From NCBI GenBank assembly GCA_016745055.1, contig JADGDF010000004.1:1-64000 (forward strand): a DNA stretch of 64,000 bases, written 5' to 3'. Positions 1 through 62,537 of the stretch are shown piece by piece. Made by a program: the position numbers and the translations under genes. The notes below the pieces were generated by a model. The model was given only the letters and a program-made list of their open reading frames with translations, searched no databases and had not been told where the DNA came from. This DNA is from Thiotrichaceae bacterium (GTDB lineage: Bacteria; Pseudomonadota; Gammaproteobacteria; Beggiatoales; Beggiatoaceae). Numbering within the stretch: position 1 is the first letter of the stretch; the number at the start of each line of letters is the position of its first letter.

Positions 1-786
1 GGCTAACATTCCTTTAATTTCGTCGTTCTCTTCCATTGAGATTCCTAATTTTCCTAAAACGTCTTCAAATGTACTAATTTCATCTATCATCCTTGCTTTT
101 AAAGCCTGCTCTGCATTAAGCACATCACCTTGTCCAAATTCATTTTGAACATGGGCAATACTTACACCACGAAAGCGGCTTAAATCTGCATGAAAAAATG
201 ATTCTAAGTGATCAATTTTTTCCTTAACGCCTTGCTTCCAATCTTTATCACCTGCGTTTAAATGCTTTTTTGGGGCATATTTAGAGGTAATAATAAGTTT
301 TTTGTTATCATTAACATAACTAGCATGTAATACACCCACGCTACCAATAAAAGCGGTTTTCCCTGCATATGACTTAGTTGTTGCGGACTGCAACCAATAA
401 CCCGCGCTTGCTGATAAGCTTGTAGCGTAAGAATAAATGGGCTTTGTTTGACGTGCCTGGTAAATCATATTGGCAAATTCAGCAACCCCACCTACCTCAC
501 CACCAGGGCTATCAACCTCAAAGAGTATTGACTTTACGCGCTTGTTCTTAACTGCTTGCTCTAACTCTTTGGCTAACATTTCTATGCTTGACCCAAAAAA
601 CAACGAATATAAAGATGTATGCTGAAAAATAACGCCACGAATGGGAATAACGGCAACACCACCCCTTATGGTAGTAAGCCAAGAATTATTAAGCGGCTTT
701 CCGAATTCCTTGCTGACTGCTAGTATCTTGCTCAGTGTCAGCAGGTGGCTTTCCTGAATTGCCCAATATTTGTTGGTCAAGTTCAT
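1..786 (-). CDS. S49 (SppA/ClpP-fold) head maturation protease, partial
   Basis: Partial: the 3' end lies outside the window; 262 residues are visible. Reading upstream of the portal stop gives an open frame to an ATG at 786, so it overlaps the portal 3' end by 98 bp. Visible marks of the S49 family are the segment EVDSPGGEVGG (residues 90-100), the SASAGYW motif whose second Ser (about 127) would be the nucleophile, and a Lys near residue 169 as candidate base. By analogy to lambda gpC this protease cleaves scaffold and head proteins during prohead maturation. Its place directly after portal is the lambda order B-C. Confidence 0.88.
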   Translation of the reverse strand, partial: MNLTNKYWAIQESHLLTLSKILAVSKEFGKPLNNSWLTTIRGGVAVIPIRGVIFQHTSLYSLFFGSSIEMLAKELEQAVKNKRVKSILFEVDSPGGEVGGVAEFANMIYQARQTKPIYSYATSLSASAGYWLQSATTKSYAGKTAFIGSVGVLHASYVNDNKKLIITSKYAPKKHLNAGDKDWKQGVKEKIDHLESFFHADLSRFRGVSIAHVQNEFGQGDVLNAEQALKARMIDEISTFEDVLGKLGISMEENDEIKGMLA

Positions 787-2110
787 ATTTTTTATCAAAT
801 TCTCTATCAGCGACAATTTGCATCATTGTCTGTTCTGGGTCGCGGTTTTCACTGCGTATAACTTCGGTGCGCGACATTAACTTGTTGTCAATAGCCATGA
901 CTTTCCAACCAATATCTTTGGTTGGGTCAATATTTTGCACAACGGGGGCGCTGTAAATTGCGTTGGTAATACTTGATAAGTCAACATCTTTAGGTATTTT
1001 AATTTGGCCGTATAGAATTACGACCTTTATCCACCTTTTATATATTTTTTCAACAAGACGAGCAGCATCCCTAGCTCTTGGATGAGTTATCATATGCGCA
1101 TCAATTGCCTTCATACGTTCTGAACTGTATGAGCCATCATAGTTTCGCGTGACAGCAGCCTCAGTAGCGCCCACACCTACAGAAATCATTTTAAAATTGT
1201 GATTAACGAATGCTTGCAACCCAGAGTTTGGGCGGCCGTTTGGGTTAACTATCTCAACAATTTCACCAGGCAATAAATTGTCAAAGAACATTCCTGGTTC
1301 AAAGAAGAAATCACGCGTATCTTCCTCTGGATTGTATTCTTGGCCGGTGCTGACAGGCATTTCTTTGTCACGTCGAATTTGCCCCATCAGTGCAGCCGCC
1401 ATTTTTGCTGCTGTTCTTTCAAACATTTCATAGTCATCAGTATCCATAATGCGTTTGATGACTGGATGAAAGATGCTAACCCCGCGCGTTTGACGTATAC
1501 GACGGGTAAGTTTTAGATGTAAAACTTCACTAGCAGGAACAAAGTAATAATCACGTTGCCAAGTTTCTGAAGGATGGTTTGCGTAAAAGTAATAACCTAG
1601 CGGCTTACCAAACGGGCTTTTTTTTACTCCTTGAATAACTCGATTATCAACATCGTCGAAATCTATGGGACAACATTCAGTTTCAATTAATTCCAAACTG
1701 AGAGGAGTATCAGATTCATGGTCAAAATCGTATCCTTCAATAAATCTAAGGAATATCTCTCCATCTCGATAATAGGTTCGGGCGGCTCGATTGAATATTT
1801 GAAAGCCGCTAAACTCTCCCGTCACTTCACAAGTGGCCAGCCATTTGTTAAACTCAATCTTAAGGCATTGATTTAGCTCAATATGCGGTGTGCCATTTTT
1901 GTTTTTTACAAGTGGTATCACACCATTATCAGAGGTCACAGTGCGTGTAACTAACCAATCCAGTAGACCAACAGAAGCATCGTGATTCTCTTCAAGCCAC
2001 CGTGCTTTTTGCACCAATGGCCATTGTGAAAATCGCACATTCTGATCAGGAGAGTATGAGTCGTAATAGCGTTTACGGGTTGTCTTATGTGTAAAAGCGC
2101 CCTCATACAT
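689..2110 (-). CDS. Portal protein, lambda gpB family
   Basis: 473 residues, the usual size for lambda-type portals (PF05136). The dodecameric portal sits at one capsid vertex, docks terminase and lets DNA in and out. Family features visible are the N-terminal region with RTYYRDGEIFLRFI (about 108-121), the central segment with PEEDTRDFFFEPGMF and LLPGE, and the conserved TRNYDGSYSSER (about 325-336). The gene lies between a gpW-like joiner and the S49 protease, as in lambda. The terminase genes are not adjacent but about 55 kb away. Confidence 0.9.
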   Translation of the reverse strand: MYEGAFTHKTTRKRYYDSYSPDQNVRFSQWPLVQKARWLEENHDASVGLLDWLVTRTVTSDNGVIPLVKNKNGTPHIELNQCLKIEFNKWLATCEVTGEFSGFQIFNRAARTYYRDGEIFLRFIEGYDFDHESDTPLSLELIETECCPIDFDDVDNRVIQGVKKSPFGKPLGYYFYANHPSETWQRDYYFVPASEVLHLKLTRRIRQTRGVSIFHPVIKRIMDTDDYEMFERTAAKMAAALMGQIRRDKEMPVSTGQEYNPEEDTRDFFFEPGMFFDNLLPGEIVEIVNPNGRPNSGLQAFVNHNFKMISVGVGATEAAVTRNYDGSYSSERMKAIDAHMITHPRARDAARLVEKIYKRWIKVVILYGQIKIPKDVDLSSITNAIYSAPVVQNIDPTKDIGWKVMAIDNKLMSRTEVIRSENRDPEQTMMQIVADREFDKKYELDQQILGNSGKPPADTEQDTSSQQGIRKAA

Positions 2111-27063: not shown

Positions 27064-27130
27064 ATTTTCAACGTAATTATAAAGTGTTTACAAGGACACT
27101 CGCGTTTTCCATTTCGCCACACGCCGACTA

Positions 27131-27248
27131 GCAGCATGGCAGGAGTCGAACCTGCAAATTAATGTGTTGTTGATGCTTTTATTGATTTCAATAACAAGTA
27201 GACTTTTAATATAAAAAATACCGCGCTCTGCCATTAAGCTATGCACCC
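27131..27248 (-). tRNA. Oversized tRNA-like element B
   Basis: Minus strand. It starts GGGTGCA-TA and a normal D arm GCT-TAATGGCAG-AGC, and ends with a perfect T arm GCAGG-TTCGACT-CCTGC, but 65 bases lie between D arm and T arm, including a perfect hairpin TTATTG-AAAT-CAATAA. The 3' acceptor strand (CATGCTG) does not pair with the 5' strand. The 5' half therefore looks like it comes from a different tRNA than the 3' half. Probably degenerate or a recombinant. Confidence 0.4.
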
Positions 27249-27285
27249 TCAATATACACTCAATATTTTATGCAAATGCATATTT

Positions 27286-27334
27286 AGGGTGCCCACGGAA
27301 TCGAACCGTTACCTCAGCAATGTAAAATTGCTAC
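27286..27334 (-). tRNA. 3' half of a tRNA (element C), anticodon arm to acceptor
   Basis: Minus strand. Anticodon arm AGCAA-TTTTACA-TTGCT, T arm ACGG-TTCGATT-CCGT and acceptor strand GGCACCC are present; the 5' half is missing and is replaced by the TnpB fragment, whose reading frame runs into the anticodon arm. The plain loop alignment gives anticodon TTA (would read UAA), but C at position 37 and the missing 5' half argue against function. The 5' strand GGGTGCA of element B would pair with GGCACCC at six of seven positions. Confidence 0.45.
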
Positions 27335-27713
27335 CTTTATTTTCAACTTTTAAGGATTTATTGCACACATAAAAACTATCTTTGCAACCTTTCTTTTTAA
27401 ATTTTGGAAATTGCGCCTTTCCTTTAAAAAAGGACTTTAATGCTTTGTCTAAATCATTTATTGGACGTCGTGTTATTTCTGTAGCAACATCATACATCCA
27501 TGGTAAATCTCTTTTCTTTGCTCGGGTTAAATCACGGCTGAGACTTATCCAATTAGGCTTTGGAAGATCGTTATTTTCCTTGTAAGCATCGTATTGTTTT
27601 TCGTTTTTTGCCAGTGCCCAGTTGTAGGCAAAACGTGCTGAACCACACGCTTTTCTGAAATAGGTTTTTTGCCTTTTATTTGGTTTTAACTTTATTTTTT
27701 CAGCAATTATCAT
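27309..27713 (-). pseudogene. TnpB (IS200/IS605 OrfB) N-terminal fragment
   Basis: 134 codons. The start IKLKPNKRQKTYFRKACGSARFAYNWALAKNEKQYDAY is the classic TnpB N-terminus, and FPKFKKKGCKDSFYV continues the family. Full TnpB has about 370-400 residues with a RuvC domain, which is absent here. The last codons (SNFTLLR) are translated from the tRNA element C anticodon arm, so the gene is cut at a tRNA. The ATG lies five bases after the CCA of tRNA-Glu. No transposon ends are evident. Confidence 0.8.
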
Positions 27714-27867: not shown

Positions 27868-28135
27868 TTTTAGAATAAAAGACTTACTTTTAAAAAAAAG
27901 CTTTCTATACGCCATCAACAAGGTTAGGTTTCACCTGTCACAATCCGACATGACAATCCAGTGCGCCTCTCTTGCGTACCTACTGCCCTTTCTGGGGGCA
28001 GGGCATTCTTAACCCAATGCCAGGGGTAAAATCTATGCGTGGGTGGGGAGGATTTACCTACCTAATGCATCCAAGAATCTATATTCTGCATCAACGTCCA
28101 ATCCTTGGACGACACCCACATAGGGTTATGGGTAA
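27868..28135 (-). ncRNA. Structured RNA, copy 1 (with extra 5' domain)
   Basis: Minus strand. The 3' part (28021-27868) is a diverged copy of 45837-45996. In order: hairpin GGCATT/AATGCC, hairpin CTGCCC-CCAGAAA-GGGCAG, the linker TAGGTACGCAAGAGAG, a stem TGTCA/TGACA around TGTCGGATTG, and GGCGTATAGAAA, ending in TTTTATTCTAAAA. Bases differ between copies in ways that keep the helices paired. Upstream, only this copy has a further domain closed by an 11-bp helix (28033-28045 with 28113-28123) containing CGTCCAA-TCC-TTGGACG. It is followed by tRNA-Glu. Class unknown. Confidence 0.6.
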
Positions 28136-28280
28136 CTTTAATCACCGCTTTTAGAAAAGCGATAACACCTTACATAAGTGAGTTGCTAACACCCTAGTCC
28201 TACTTTAATGGCTCGCATATTTCAGATTTAGGTTATTATAACCTACTGATTGATAGAAAGTAAATAATCAATGATTATTT

Positions 28281-28512
28281 AATAATTAAAAATTCGTCAA
28301 CACAACCTCTGCCCCCCATTTGAGTTTATATTTCTTGCAGCTTTAACTATCATTCATAGAGTCACAAGTTGTCTTTAAACGATAATGATCATCTAAAGTA
28401 AATCCTGTATTGGTATACCCTGTAAAACTTGAAGTTGAAAGAGGAACATAAGGTGGGTCTAAGTAAACAAAATCATCATCAGGATAATATAAGGCATCCT
28501 CAAATGTTGAGA
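28281..28512 (-). pseudogene. Truncated duplicate of the Dam methyltransferase 3' end
   Basis: This stretch repeats the 3' end of the adjacent dam gene (28690-29010 region) nearly base for base, but about 80 bases are deleted inside it (after the codons for AAR) and it stops abruptly at 28512. It includes the [20 protein letters not shown] coding part. A direct duplication with decay; not functional. The spacer up to 28690 is AT-rich and twice contains ATGTATAGAAAA. Confidence 0.8.
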
Positions 28513-28689: not shown

Positions 28690-29511
28690 TTAATAATTAG
28701 TAATTAGTAATTCGTTAACACAACCTCTGCCCCCCCCATTTGAGTTTATATTTCTTGCAGCTTTAACAACTGCAATGTCATAATCTCTATATAACGCCCT
28801 TGTGAAAGGGGTGTCAGAATTTGACAATAAAAATCTTACACCTCTATGATTCATAGAATCACAAGTTGTCTTTAAACGATAATGATCATCTAAAGTAAAT
28901 CCTGTATTGGTATACCCTGTAAAACTTGAAGTTGAAAGAGGAACATAAGGTGGGTCTAAGTAAACGAAATCATCATCATCAGGATAATCTAAGGCCTCCT
29001 CAAAATCACCGCTAAATATTTCAATAACAGATGACCCAAGATAATCACTAACACTTTTTAAATTATCCTCATCAACAAGGAACTCTTTTTTGTCTCCAAA
29101 AGGAACATTAAAGTGATTTTTCTTGTTGACCCTATATAAGCCGTTAAAACACATCTTATTCAAATAAATAAAACGAGCCGCCCTTTCTATTTCACTCAAT
29201 AACTCAAAAGACTCAAGACATCTATCTAAATTTCTTAGTTTATAATAATACTCCTTAGTCGCGTGCTGTTTTTTTAATTCATCAATAAGAGGATCAATGG
29301 CATATTTTAAAACATGGTATGTGTTTACTAATTCTCTATTTTTATCGGAGATAAAAGCTGATTCTGGTTTAAAATGAAAAAGCACCGCCCCACCCCCAAG
29401 AAATGGTTCGTAATATGTTCCTATTTTCTCAGGAAAATTCATAAAAACTGTAAGCTTTCTTTTACCACCTGCCCATTTTAAAAAAGGGGAAGTTTTAGTC
29501 TTTTCAGACAT
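28690..29511 (-). CDS. dam: DNA adenine methyltransferase, Dam family (D12 class)
   Basis: 273 residues, full length. FLKWAGGKRKL (10-20), AdoMet motif I YEPFLGGGAVLF (34-45), FNGLYRVNKKNHFNVPFG (122-139) and catalytic motif IV DPPY (186-189) identify the Dam family, which methylates the adenine in GATC. It probably shields phage DNA from host restriction or marks replication and packaging. The gene stands alone in an intergenic-rich area beside its own truncated copy. Confidence 0.93.
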   Translation of the reverse strand: MSEKTKTSPFLKWAGGKRKLTVFMNFPEKIGTYYEPFLGGGAVLFHFKPESAFISDKNRELVNTYHVLKYAIDPLIDELKKQHATKEYYYKLRNLDRCLESFELLSEIERAARFIYLNKMCFNGLYRVNKKNHFNVPFGDKKEFLVDEDNLKSVSDYLGSSVIEIFSGDFEEALDYPDDDDFVYLDPPYVPLSTSSFTGYTNTGFTLDDHYRLKTTCDSMNHRGVRFLLSNSDTPFTRALYRDYDIAVVKAARNINSNGGGRGCVNELLITNY

Positions 29512-33975: not shown

Positions 33976-34268
33976 ACTACAATTACCTTGACAACACGCA
34001 CCAAACCTTTCACCTCAGTGAGGATATTCACACAAAATTAAACAAAAAAGCAAAAGAAATAGGTCAAAGTAGGTCAGAATTACTTACATCAATACTGATG
34101 AATAGATCACCAATGCAGCAAGGCCGGAGAACAAAAAAAATAAAGGTTAATACCAGAATTCCTTTGGATTTGAAGAATAAACTGCTTGTTGAATTCAGGC
34201 GAGGTGGTTACAATAGCCTTACATCTTATGTAAATGAAGTAATATCTCAAAGTATTGAGAATACATGA
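33972..34268 (+). CDS. Ribbon-helix-helix protein with two motifs
   Basis: 98 residues. Two Arc/CopG-like units: QTFHLSEDIHTKLNKKAKEIGQSRSELLTSIL (about 11-42) and VNTRIPLDLKNKLLVEFRRGGYNSLTSYVNEVI (about 61-93), each a beta strand followed by two helices. It overlaps both neighbours by four bases, so DUF3164, this gene and the M50 protease form a tight operon. It could bind the 13-bp array upstream as an autoregulator; that is inference. Confidence 0.75.
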   Translation: MNYNYLDNTHQTFHLSEDIHTKLNKKAKEIGQSRSELLTSILMNRSPMQQGRRTKKIKVNTRIPLDLKNKLLVEFRRGGYNSLTSYVNEVISQSIENT

Positions 34269-35452
34269 ATTTTCTACTATTCCTATATCTATCACTTTTT
34301 TTTCTTGTAATAATTCACGAACTGGGGCATTTTATTGTCACAAGAATTTTTCGTATTTCCATTGAAAGGGTAGATATAGGAATTGGTTTTCCCCTTCTAA
34401 GGTTCTATTTCTTCGGAACTAGAGTAGCTGTCAGATTAATCCCACTAAAAGGAAAAATATTATTTTCCTCAAGTGAGAATAATCACTTTATTGAGGGCAA
34501 AAAATACTACCAAGGGTACGCAATGCTGCTTGCAGGCATTGCTTCAAGCTTTATACTTGCTTTTGTTTTATTTTTTGCAGCTGCTCAAGTTGGAATATCG
34601 GTTGAAAAACCGATTATTGGCCAAGCTTCTGGACTTGCCAAACATGCTGACCTCCAAAGTAACGACCAGCTCATAAAAATAAACGGCAAAAATGTTCACA
34701 ACTGGCAAGAAGTTAGTAATGCTATTAATTACTCAATAATTCAGAATGTGGCAGCTGTCAGAGTTTATTTTTTGCGCAAAAATGCTTTGTTAAAAACAAC
34801 GCTTATTCTGCCTGAAAGTACATCTATGAAAAGCGGGGCCATCTTAAAAGAAATAGGCATAAAATCGTCCTACCAATATCAACTACATGTAATCAGTAGT
34901 GAAAATAAAAAATTACAGACAGGGGATATTATTTCCCATGTTAATGGGTTTCCTGTTACTTCAGTCAAATTCTGGGTTGAGTCTTTAAAACAGAGAAAGG
35001 TTACGCTTCACGTAAAACGTGGGCAATGGGGAAAAAATATAGACATGTTCCCTAAAAATGAGGTTATAGGAATAACTATTAAGTTTAGGGGAGTCAAAAA
35101 TAAGAAATATTACCCTTTATTAACAGGATTGAAGTTTGCTTTCAATGAAGTCCTACAAACTTCTTCCTATCTATACGAAATCGTGATAGGTTTCCTTTCC
35201 TTCAGTTCTAAAATCAAATTTCAGTTCTATGAACCCGGAAACTTAACGATTGATTATATATTAAGGCTATTAGCTATTATGTGCTTAATACATATAATCC
35301 CAAATATACTTTTACCACGATCAGATGGTTGGGTGTTTGTGTCAAGTATTCTGAAAACGCAAATGCTTTACAATCAAAAGATGGAGAAGTTTATTGCCTA
35401 TTTATGGTATTTTATATTGACTTTATGCTCTACAATATTGGGACTCAGCTAA
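34265..35452 (+). CDS. Site-2 intramembrane metalloprotease, M50 (RseP-like)
   Basis: 395 residues. Zinc motif HELGH (18-22) lies in the first membrane helix; the third zinc ligand is the Asp in LLPRSDGW (Asp354), in the place of NxxPxxxLDG in RseP. Two PDZ domains (about 113-180 and 205-260) lie between transmembrane segments at 90-110 and 290-310. RseP cuts anti-sigma factors and signal peptides in the inner membrane. It is unusual on a phage; the tight operon with a ribbon-helix-helix protein suggests proteolytic control of a regulator or of host envelope stress. Confidence 0.87.
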   Translation: MNFLLFLYLSLFFLVIIHELGHFIVTRIFRISIERVDIGIGFPLLRFYFFGTRVAVRLIPLKGKILFSSSENNHFIEGKKYYQGYAMLLAGIASSFILAFVLFFAAAQVGISVEKPIIGQASGLAKHADLQSNDQLIKINGKNVHNWQEVSNAINYSIIQNVAAVRVYFLRKNALLKTTLILPESTSMKSGAILKEIGIKSSYQYQLHVISSENKKLQTGDIISHVNGFPVTSVKFWVESLKQRKVTLHVKRGQWGKNIDMFPKNEVIGITIKFRGVKNKKYYPLLTGLKFAFNEVLQTSSYLYEIVIGFLSFSSKIKFQFYEPGNLTIDYILRLLAIMCLIHIIPNILLPRSDGWVFVSSILKTQMLYNQKMEKFIAYLWYFILTLCSTILGLS

Positions 35453-37923: not shown

Positions 37924-38132
37924 GATGTGCGTTTTTTGCTATTTTTGAGCTTCACCCCAGCGTCAAGTCATGGTAGAGTAGGCTAACGGAGTGCGTAGTG
38001 CAACGGAGTACGCAGTTGCCGTATCGAGACCGGACGTGTCGGGGCAAACAAACTAGCGTCTCGCTGAGAATTGAGTCGCTCTTAGGGATAGGACGTCCCG
38101 GGAGCGTCGCGAAATCTCTGCGTGACACCGGC
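37924..38132 (+). repeat. Dispersed 209-bp repeat, copy 1
   Basis: From GATGTGCGTTTTTTGC to GACACCGGC. Nearly identical to 62329-62537 in the same orientation; a shorter diverged copy is at 59763-59850. It is clearly richer in GC than its surroundings. It contains TACGCAGTTGCCGTATCGAG, a CGGGGCAAACAAACTAGCG block, and GGACGTCCCGGGAGCG near its end. It has no ORF of its own. It stands just downstream of the gene at 38162. Confidence 0.85.
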
Positions 38133-45496: not shown

Positions 45497-45587
45497 TATA
45501 CTTATTCCCGTATCCCACCTTGTGGGGTGTGATAGCTGGGAACGCGGTGTCGGATAGACATTTTGGGCGTTCCCAGCGCTTTTTTTA
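45497..45587 (+). ncRNA. Putative small RNA with own promoter and terminator
   Basis: A -10 box TATACT (45497-45502) is followed by hairpin CCCAC-CTT-GTGGG, then an 11-bp stem GCTGGGAACGC/GCGTTCCCAGC (45535-45545 with 45567-45577) that encloses TGTC-GGATA-GACA, then GCTTTTTTT. The transcript would be about 80 bases and very stable. No ORF fits. The long stem shares its core with the palindromic repeats of this window. The -35 region is weak. Confidence 0.5.
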
Positions 45588-45620
45588 AGGCCGTGTAGCT
45601 TCTAACTACATGGCCTTTTT
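45587..45620. terminator. Bidirectional terminator
   Basis: AAGGCCGTGTAG-CTTCTA-ACTACATGGCCTTTTT: an 11-12-bp stem with one G-T pair, with T run on the plus strand and A/T on the other. It backs up the small-RNA terminator and isolates the minus-strand operon from the plus-strand genes. Confidence 0.7.
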
Positions 45621-45805
45621 CTATTCTAAGCTGTTCCCTTTCAAAAAATCAAGTCTTTTTTCACCTAATTTTCTTTTTTATAACAATTAGTTAGTTAACT
45701 TTTTGTTAATGTTTAATACTAGTCTAGTATGTATCAATTATTTATTTGTTTGAAAACATGGGTTTACTTTTATATCCATTTTAGTTAACCTATAATGCAT
45801 AATTT

Positions 45806-45829
45806 CCCAGCATTTATGCTGGGTTTTTT
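45806..45829 (+). terminator. Terminator or attenuator hairpin
   Basis: CCCAGCA-TTTA-TGCTGGG, then TTTTTT. It lies ten bases after a TATAAT (45791-45796) and seven bases before structured RNA copy 2, so it may attenuate that RNA's transcription rather than end a gene. Confidence 0.7.
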
Positions 45830-45836
45830 CAGCTTT

Positions 45837-45996
45837 GACATTGGCTTAAAAATGTCCTGCTCCCAGAAATGGCAGTAGGTACGCAAGAGAGTGCACTGGC
45901 CTGTCATGTCGGATTGTGGCAGGTGAAACCAACCCTTATTGACGGCGTATAGAAAACGTTTATCTTATTGATAATGTTAGACTTTTATTCTAAAAA
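45837..45996 (+). ncRNA. Structured RNA, copy 2
   Basis: Inverted relative to copy 1 (27868-28021). Hairpin GACATT/AATGTC (copy 1 GGCATT/AATGCC: a compensated A-T to G-C change), hairpin CTGCTC-CCAGAAA-TGGCAG, identical linker TAGGTACGCAAGAGAG, stem TGTCA/TGGCA around TGTCGGATTG, then GGCGTATAGAAA and TTTTATTCTAAAA. Compensating differences argue for a selected RNA structure. It precedes a run of small plus-strand genes starting at 46093 and could be their leader. Confidence 0.6.
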
Positions 45997-46092
45997 GCAG
46001 TTTTAGAATTTTGAAGCCTGTCCGGAAAATGAATCCCCAGAAGGCAAAGATTAGTTTGGTTCTTTCATTTAACATTTTTTGGAGGTTTAGTT

Positions 46093-46257
46093 ATGCCGTT
46101 TATCTTGCTAATAATTGCGGTTGTTGTGATAGGAGGGCCGTTATTGCTTATTTGGGCCGTTAACACGTTGTTTGCTACAGGTATAGGATACAACCTGGCA
46201 ACTTGGTTTGCAGCTTTGATTTTGGGTGGCGTTGTTTCTAGTAATGCCAAAAAGTAA
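46093..46257 (+). CDS. Small membrane protein, 54 aa
   Basis: MPFILLIIAVVVIGGPLLLI, then WAVNTLFATGIGYNLATWFAALILGG: two membrane segments. Strong GGAGG Shine-Dalgarno. The centre NTLF-x-x-G-I-x-Y-x-x-x-T-W is a pattern I remember from small membrane proteins encoded by many phages, function unknown. Too short for routine ORF calling. Confidence 0.7.
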   Translation: MPFILLIIAVVVIGGPLLLIWAVNTLFATGIGYNLATWFAALILGGVVSSNAKK

Positions 46258-46265
46258 TTTTGGCT

Positions 46266-46296
46266 TGTTCCCACGCAGCGCACGGGAATAAGATAA
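46266..46296. repeat. Short palindromic repeat (TTCCCACGC type)
   Basis: TTGTTCCCACGCAGCGCAC followed by GGGAATAAGATAA. Similar to 46852-46884 and 36894-36926; it lies between two small phage genes. Confidence 0.55.
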
Positions 46297-46851: not shown

Positions 46852-46884
46852 GCATTCCCGCGCAGCGCGTGGGAACAAGATAAT
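46852..46884. repeat. Short palindromic repeat (TTCCCGCGC type)
   Basis: GCATTCCCGCGCAGCGCGTG followed by GGAACAAGATAA. It separates the plus-strand small genes from the minus-strand exported protein and ends in a partial match to 46266-46296. Confidence 0.55.
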
Positions 46885-59762: not shown

Positions 59763-59850
59763 TCATTACGCAATGGAGTGCGCAGTTACTGTATTGAGAC
59801 TGGACAGGTCGGGGCAAACAAATTAGCGTTTCGCTTGAGTTTTGTAAAGA
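59763..59850 (+). repeat. Dispersed repeat, partial copy 3
   Basis: Diverged, truncated copy of the 209-bp repeat (37924, 62329): AGTGCGCAGTTACTGTATTG, GGTCGGGGCAAACAAATTAG, CGTTTCGCTTGAG. It lies at the 5' end of the DUF4325 gene. Confidence 0.7.
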
Positions 59851-62328: not shown

Positions 62329-62537
62329 GATGTGCGTTTTTTGCTATTTTGGGGCTTCACCCCAGCGTCAAGTCATGGTGGAGTAGGCTGACGGAGTGCG
62401 TAGTGTAACGGAGTACGCAGTTGCCGTATCAAGACCGGACGTGTCGGGGCAAACAAACTAGCGTCTCGCTGAGAATTGAGTCGCTCTTAGGGATAGGACG
62501 TCCCGGGAGCGTCACGAAAACTCTGCGTGACACCGGC
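62329..62537 (+). repeat. Dispersed 209-bp repeat, copy 2
   Basis: Nearly identical to 37924-38132 (same orientation, 24.4 kb away). It has entered the 3' end of the following minus-strand gene, whose last 16 codons are read from the repeat. The short GC-rich piece before it (62222-62328) is not repeated in this window. Confidence 0.85.

Follow-up and report, generated by a model that had tools for sequence, protein, structure and literature searches.

A repeated noncoding element, probably a structured RNA, in a phage genome of a Thiotrichaceae bacterium

The window analyzed here, a 64,000-nucleotide stretch of DNA from a Thiotrichaceae bacterium, is a portion of a 67,832-base contig (C208) that carries a phage genome. 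The last 99 bases of the contig are the same as its first 99, and self-comparison with blastn identifies C208 66674 to 67731 as a perfect 1058-bp repeat of positions 1 to 1058 (window 1 to 1058). These repeats at both contig ends fit a circular or terminally redundant phage genome of ∼66.7 to 67.7 kb, and the contig as a whole fits a complete one. Its genes include those for a portal, a terminase, a primase-like replication protein, SSB, a DNA methyltransferase, and an integrase, together with a contractile-tail module consisting of baseplate, sheath, and a 2003-aa protein at the tape-measure position. The terminase is VP882/phiHAP-1-like, being ∼30% identical to the terminases of VP882 and phiHAP-1, and no sister phage with a matching terminase, sheath, or primase, nor any close phage relative, was found in IMG/VR. 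An unusual cargo for a phage is encoded at 35 kb, where a 395-aa M50 (site-2) peptidase with a PDZ domain (34265 to 35452, plus strand) lies near a DUF3164 protein.

This genome contains plentiful duplications: besides a 142-bp repeat and a 154-bp tandem array, there are a host-wide repeat of 205 bp and a fragment of the methyltransferase gene in tandem. The 3′ fragment of the methyltransferase gene is duplicated at 28276 to 28504 and 28694 to 29004, directly behind the intact gene and upstream of copy 1 of the element described below, with 91 to 95% identity. The host-wide repeat (205 to 209 bp) is present at window positions 37924 to 38132, 62329 to 62537, and 59770 to 59835 and has 42 matches across the host genome at 72 to 100% identity. 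It matches nothing in Rfam and is shared by host and phage; the family is MITE-like or structured.

A further duplicated sequence is the subject of this analysis. Comparison of the phage contig with itself by blastn aligns 45836 to 45996 of the plus strand with 28022 to 27867 of the minus strand at 83.3% identity (E = 2.6e-40), which bears out the homology of 28021 to 27868 (minus) and 45837 to 45996 (plus) proposed in an earlier note made from the letters of this DNA. Alignment and folding delimit a core of 120 nt in copy 1 (27902 to 28021, minus strand) and of 119 nt in copy 2 (45837 to 45955, plus strand). Over this core (alignment columns 1 to 120), identity reaches 88%, with a lone single-base indel; past the core lies a hairpin that differs between them in sequence and by six bases in length, after which the final 14 bases, CTTTTATTCTAAAA, are again identical. 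Both copies also share identical unpaired stretches, for example TAGGTACGCAAGAGA and CATGTCGGATTGTG. The linker TAGGTACGCAAGAGAG, previously described as unchanged, is indeed identical over its first 15 bases, but copy 1 has one extra G adjoining its end.

The two copies are 18 kb apart on opposite strands and face outwards. On the minus strand, copy 1 follows the methyltransferase gene and precedes a tRNA-Glu gene (TTC anticodon; 27792 to 27718, minus strand; identified by ARAGORN and Rfam), at a place late in a minus-strand gene run that is not evidently the start of an operon. Copy 2, on the plus strand, heads a short series of small genes; one of them, with its start at 46093, encodes a probable membrane protein of 54 aa. 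The neighbors named in the earlier note, tRNA-Glu for one copy and small phage membrane genes behind the other, are in line with those observed. REP-like palindromes of the TTCCCACGCAGCGCACGGGAA type flank small genes in inverted orientation at 46264 to 46289 and 46854 to 46879. On the minus strand at 27070 to 27345, a tRNA 3′ half (∼27345 to 27295) is followed by a tRNA-like match (27244 to 27133; 18.5 bits) with a long insertion within the anticodon region and then by a tRNA 5′ half; these broken sequences are possibly degraded or interrupted phage tRNAs.

The surroundings of copy 1 raise the question of whether the element is the end of a mobile element, either an IS200/IS605-type hairpin end or a MITE, as an N-terminal TnpB fragment (HTH_OrfB_IS605; 27309 to 27713, minus strand) is close by, starting ∼5 nt past the CCA end of tRNA-Glu. 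Such an origin, which the earlier note had itself named as an outcome that would undo its reading, is disfavored on examination and appears very improbable. A search of the host's own genome (4.65 Mb, 356 contigs) finds two copies only, both on the phage, and the borders of the homology show neither terminal inverted repeats nor target duplications. Furthermore, tRNA-Glu stands between copy 1 and the TnpB fragment, which is the single one of its kind, with no other such tnpB in the genome and none near copy 2.

The element does not encode a protein. Stop codons occur in all six frames of each copy, and the indels of one and six bases disrupt the reading frames between them, in agreement with what had been supposed earlier. 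Nor does it belong to a known RNA family. In a comparison with Rfam 15 that took in C4, GOLLD, ROOL, EAR, riboswitches, and group I/II introns, tRNA was the only family matched in the window at gathering score. At E ≤ 10, nothing overlaps copy 1 or its 5′ domain, and the region of copy 2 has sub-threshold matches only, centered on a terminator hairpin upstream of it (best E = 0.099; 29 bits versus a gathering score of 50). The impression in the earlier note that no family fits is therefore upheld, with no convincing Rfam match for either copy.

The covariance-model search for homologues that the earlier note proposed was run on several hundred genomes and yielded no third copy: the model of the core recovers its own two copies only among 43 family- or order-level, 369 class-level, and 399 phylum-level genomes (overlapping sets). 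IMG/VR and the contigs of GTDB genomes were also scanned with exact and gapped patterns. A few matches resulted, all attributable to chance judging by their surroundings, and the covariance model found nothing significant among those on which it was used. Distant blastn searches of 50,697 phage and 72,556 plasmid records returned short chance matches only. As the filters of the genome searches were strict and the IMG/VR scans needed exact short words, more diverged relatives may have escaped these searches. The element is, within this scope, phage-specific, noncoding, repeated, and of no known family.

These searches also bear on a role as an RNA anti-CRISPR (a solitary repeat mimic) or as another decoy for host RNA. 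A decoy could well take the form of a structured phage RNA whose unpaired stretches are conserved, but apart from the two copies, parts of the core reappear in the host genome at E ≤ 10 only as chance 14- to 15-mers, and no Rfam family is matched, so that we consider a decoy most improbable. The more specific proposal of a mimic of this host's own CRISPR repeat is rejected as unlikely, since the core has no repeated match elsewhere in the genome and is consequently not a copy of such a repeat.

Folding models suggest that the element is probably a structured RNA. When the two cores are folded separately, largely the same helices result, namely, H1 (6 bp), H2 (5 to 6 bp, shifted slightly in copy 2), P3, in which GUACGC/GCGUAU closes the loop containing H4, and H4 itself (6 to 8 bp). 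In copy 1 (minus strand), these occupy 28021 to 28002 (H1), 28001 to 27983 (H2), 27979 to 27974 with 27912 to 27907 (P3), and 27956 to 27951 with 27940 to 27935 (H4); in copy 2 (plus strand), they occupy 45837 to 45856, 45857 to 45875, 45879 to 45884 with 45945 to 45950, and 45901 to 45906 with 45917 to 45922, respectively. H1 and H2 abut, and the conserved unit continues through P3 and H4 to ∼115 to 120 nt, to which a 3′ module is added (27868 to 27907, minus strand, in copy 1; 45950 to 45995, plus strand, in copy 2). In this module, an invariant UAGAA/UUCUA pairing, which has one U in common between its first pair and the last G-U pair of P3, can enclose a hairpin that is formable in both copies despite its differing sequence. 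The hairpin has 8 bp in copy 2; in copy 1, it is short (CUUUU/AAAAG) and marginally stable by itself. Copy 1 has in addition a 5′ domain (28022 to 28135, minus strand), which copy 2 is without, predicted to form three hairpins closed by an 11-bp long-range helix. This helix was seen by the earlier reader and is present as CTATGTGGGTG (28123 to 28113) paired with CACCCAC-gc-ATAG (28045 to 28033), with a 2-nt bulge. The fold of the 5′ domain beats 200 of 200 shuffles (z = −2.66), and as it occurs in copy 1 only, it is without comparative support.

The differences between the copies were examined in a five-helix model, in which seven pairs differ: two have changed on both sides, four have changed on one side and are still paired, and one is broken. 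The two-sided changes are G-C to A-U in H1 and U-A to G-U in the 3′ hairpin, and the broken pair is C-G to C-U in H2 of copy 2 (C26/T34). The description of the first hairpin in the earlier note (GGCATT/AATGCC versus GACATT/AATGTC) is accordingly correct, with one pair exchanged. For the second hairpin, the arms and loop were given correctly, but the changes do not amount to covariation, as in copy 2, relative to copy 1, one pair is reduced to a G-U wobble and another no longer forms. Overall, 28 of 29 pairs are kept versus 23.8 expected (P = 0.002), a value to be read in light of the helices having been picked from the same data. The changes are also strand asymmetric. Of the seven changed pairs, six are canonical in each of the two copies on the reported strand, versus one on the complement; reading the complement would leave six of the seven mismatched in one copy, which favors the reported strand.

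Energy comparisons give a more guarded result. When columns were shuffled and the structure was re-predicted each time (n = 500), the observed energy on the reported strand was matched in 16 of 500 shuffles over 160 columns and in 32 of 500 over 120 columns (P ∼0.03 to 0.06), and that on the complementary strand in 217 to 250 of 500 (P ∼0.4 to 0.5). A fairer null, in which substitutions of equal number and kind are placed randomly on either copy (n = 600), matches the observed energy in 59 to 152 cases (P ∼0.10 to 0.25). With this value and two sequences, a selected fold is plausible yet not shown, and with no relative found elsewhere, its support is weak. Of the interpretation in the earlier note, the noncoding nature of the element and its strand are sustained; the further step from covarying helices to selection on the fold is not established by these data.

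It could alternatively be argued that the element is a duplicated non-functional or DNA-level segment, an intergenic stretch copied inside this phage that has since diverged, with hairpins that are incidental or serve as DNA signals. The many other duplications in this phage would accommodate such an origin, as would core folds that are unremarkable individually (z = −0.85 and −1.60) and the non-significant outcome of the random-substitution comparison. The changes, however, are spread unevenly, with 14 in the 119-column core versus 7 in the 3′ hairpin (17 ungapped columns), which drifts and varies in length while the core stays alike; this suggests that the core is under constraint. As the compatible changes also favor one RNA strand, we regard a segment of this kind as unlikely.

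The flanking sequences offer some indication of how an RNA could be made. Promoter-like sites with 10 of 12 matching positions lie upstream of copy 1 (TTTACT-18-TATAAT; 28235 to 28264, minus strand) and copy 2 (TTTATA-16-TATAAT; 45769 to 45796, plus strand), in regions where such sites occur at and near chance level, respectively. From these sites, the core would start ∼205 nt (copy 1) or ∼35 nt (copy 2) into a putative transcript. An intrinsic-terminator-like hairpin lies directly upstream of copy 2 (45806 to 45829, plus strand). It belongs to three consecutive terminator-like hairpins on the plus strand within 45533 to 45830 (∼45533 to 45590, 45587 to 45617, and 45806 to 45823), which are perhaps further small RNAs. 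A terminator scan found none behind copy 1 and several weak, distant ones behind copy 2, the clear ones being upstream of copy 2. Neither core has an ORF start within 130 nt, and no terminator or ribosome-site switch was seen at the 3′ end of either copy, so that a gene-specific riboswitch fits poorly, all the more as a tRNA follows copy 1.

Each copy could instead be a stand-alone gene for a trans-acting small RNA, transcribed or processed into a discrete RNA of ∼125 to 190 nt, which would bind a protein or base-pair with an RNA of the phage or the host. It is consistent with this possibility that a tRNA rather than an ORF follows copy 1, that the upstream terminator would insulate copy 2, which has an A/U-rich hairpin and a short T-run (45989 to 46015) just behind it, and that the identical unpaired stretches could form a binding surface. 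Against it, neither copy is finished by a true terminator, promoters are not demonstrable, and no convincing antisense site was identified within the phage, where the longest complementarity is ∼15 to 19 nt with wobbles and offers no obvious target.

The other possibility of about equal standing, to which we give a slight and unproven preference, is that the element is a structured phage RNA contained in a longer transcript, where it would modify read-through by RNA polymerase in the manner of the put sites of phage HK022 but without sequence kinship to them; we assign this a probability of roughly 0.3. The element would be transcribed on the reported strand as a structured noncoding RNA of ∼125 to 155 nt, within a longer transcript, and would be active while that transcript is being synthesized. 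Such a leader or operon RNA might then alter the passage of RNA polymerase through poorly translated phage DNA, which would be the tRNA region behind copy 1 and the small genes behind copy 2.

This leader reading gains from the resemblance of the layout to that in HK022, where putL closely follows its promoter and putR lies ∼270 nt downstream (PMC9378689). In both phages, there are two copies per genome, on opposite strands and facing outwards; two neighboring 5′ stem-loops (here H1 and H2) are present; and one copy is near a promoter-like site (here copy 2) and the other ∼200 nt downstream of one (here copy 1). Weighing against the leader reading are promoter counts at chance level, the fact that no clear terminator is seen behind either copy, and the place of copy 1 late in a gene run rather than clearly at an operon start. 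The put sites differ in being ∼70 nt, with two stem-loops only that are ∼one nucleotide apart, whereas the present element has four helices over ∼115 nt and a 3′ module. They are factor-independent antiterminators whose activity depends on the zinc-binding domain of the RNA polymerase β′ subunit, and they act on downstream terminators, below early promoters, while terminators behind the copies here are not clearly seen. Sequence kinship was rejected: putL, located in NC_002166 through published residue constraints (26 of 26 agreeing), gives local alignments to copies 1 and 2 that shuffled sequences commonly equal (231 of 300 and 269 of 300 as good, respectively), and the element is thus at most an analogue of put.

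Similarities to other phage RNAs are more limited. GOLLD and ROOL are large ornate RNAs of several hundred nucleotides, often located beside phage tRNA genes. Copy 1 shares with them the adjoining tRNA gene, but they are far longer, and Rfam matches in the window are limited to tRNA. The C4 antisense RNA of P1/P7 and related prophages is likewise a short phage RNA with hairpins, but neither copy matches it in Rfam at E ≤ 10. EAR and other processive-antitermination leader RNAs resemble the element in the leader action on RNA polymerase proposed here and differ in genomic context and in the absence of an Rfam match. It could be speculated, and we consider it quite unlikely, that the element represents a lineage-restricted new class of phage RNA that works like put, attaching to RNA polymerase or to some other host factor and promoting read-through of the outward operons, but through a larger fold of another kind, made of the H1-H2 pair, a P3 multiloop, and the closed 3′ module, to which copy 1 adds its three-hairpin domain.

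In conclusion, as a candidate without relatives, the element is not yet callable a class. If real, it would be an orphan among phage RNAs, present as two paralogues in a single genome, and could provide a useful way into RNA-only control of phage transcription beyond the enteric phages.
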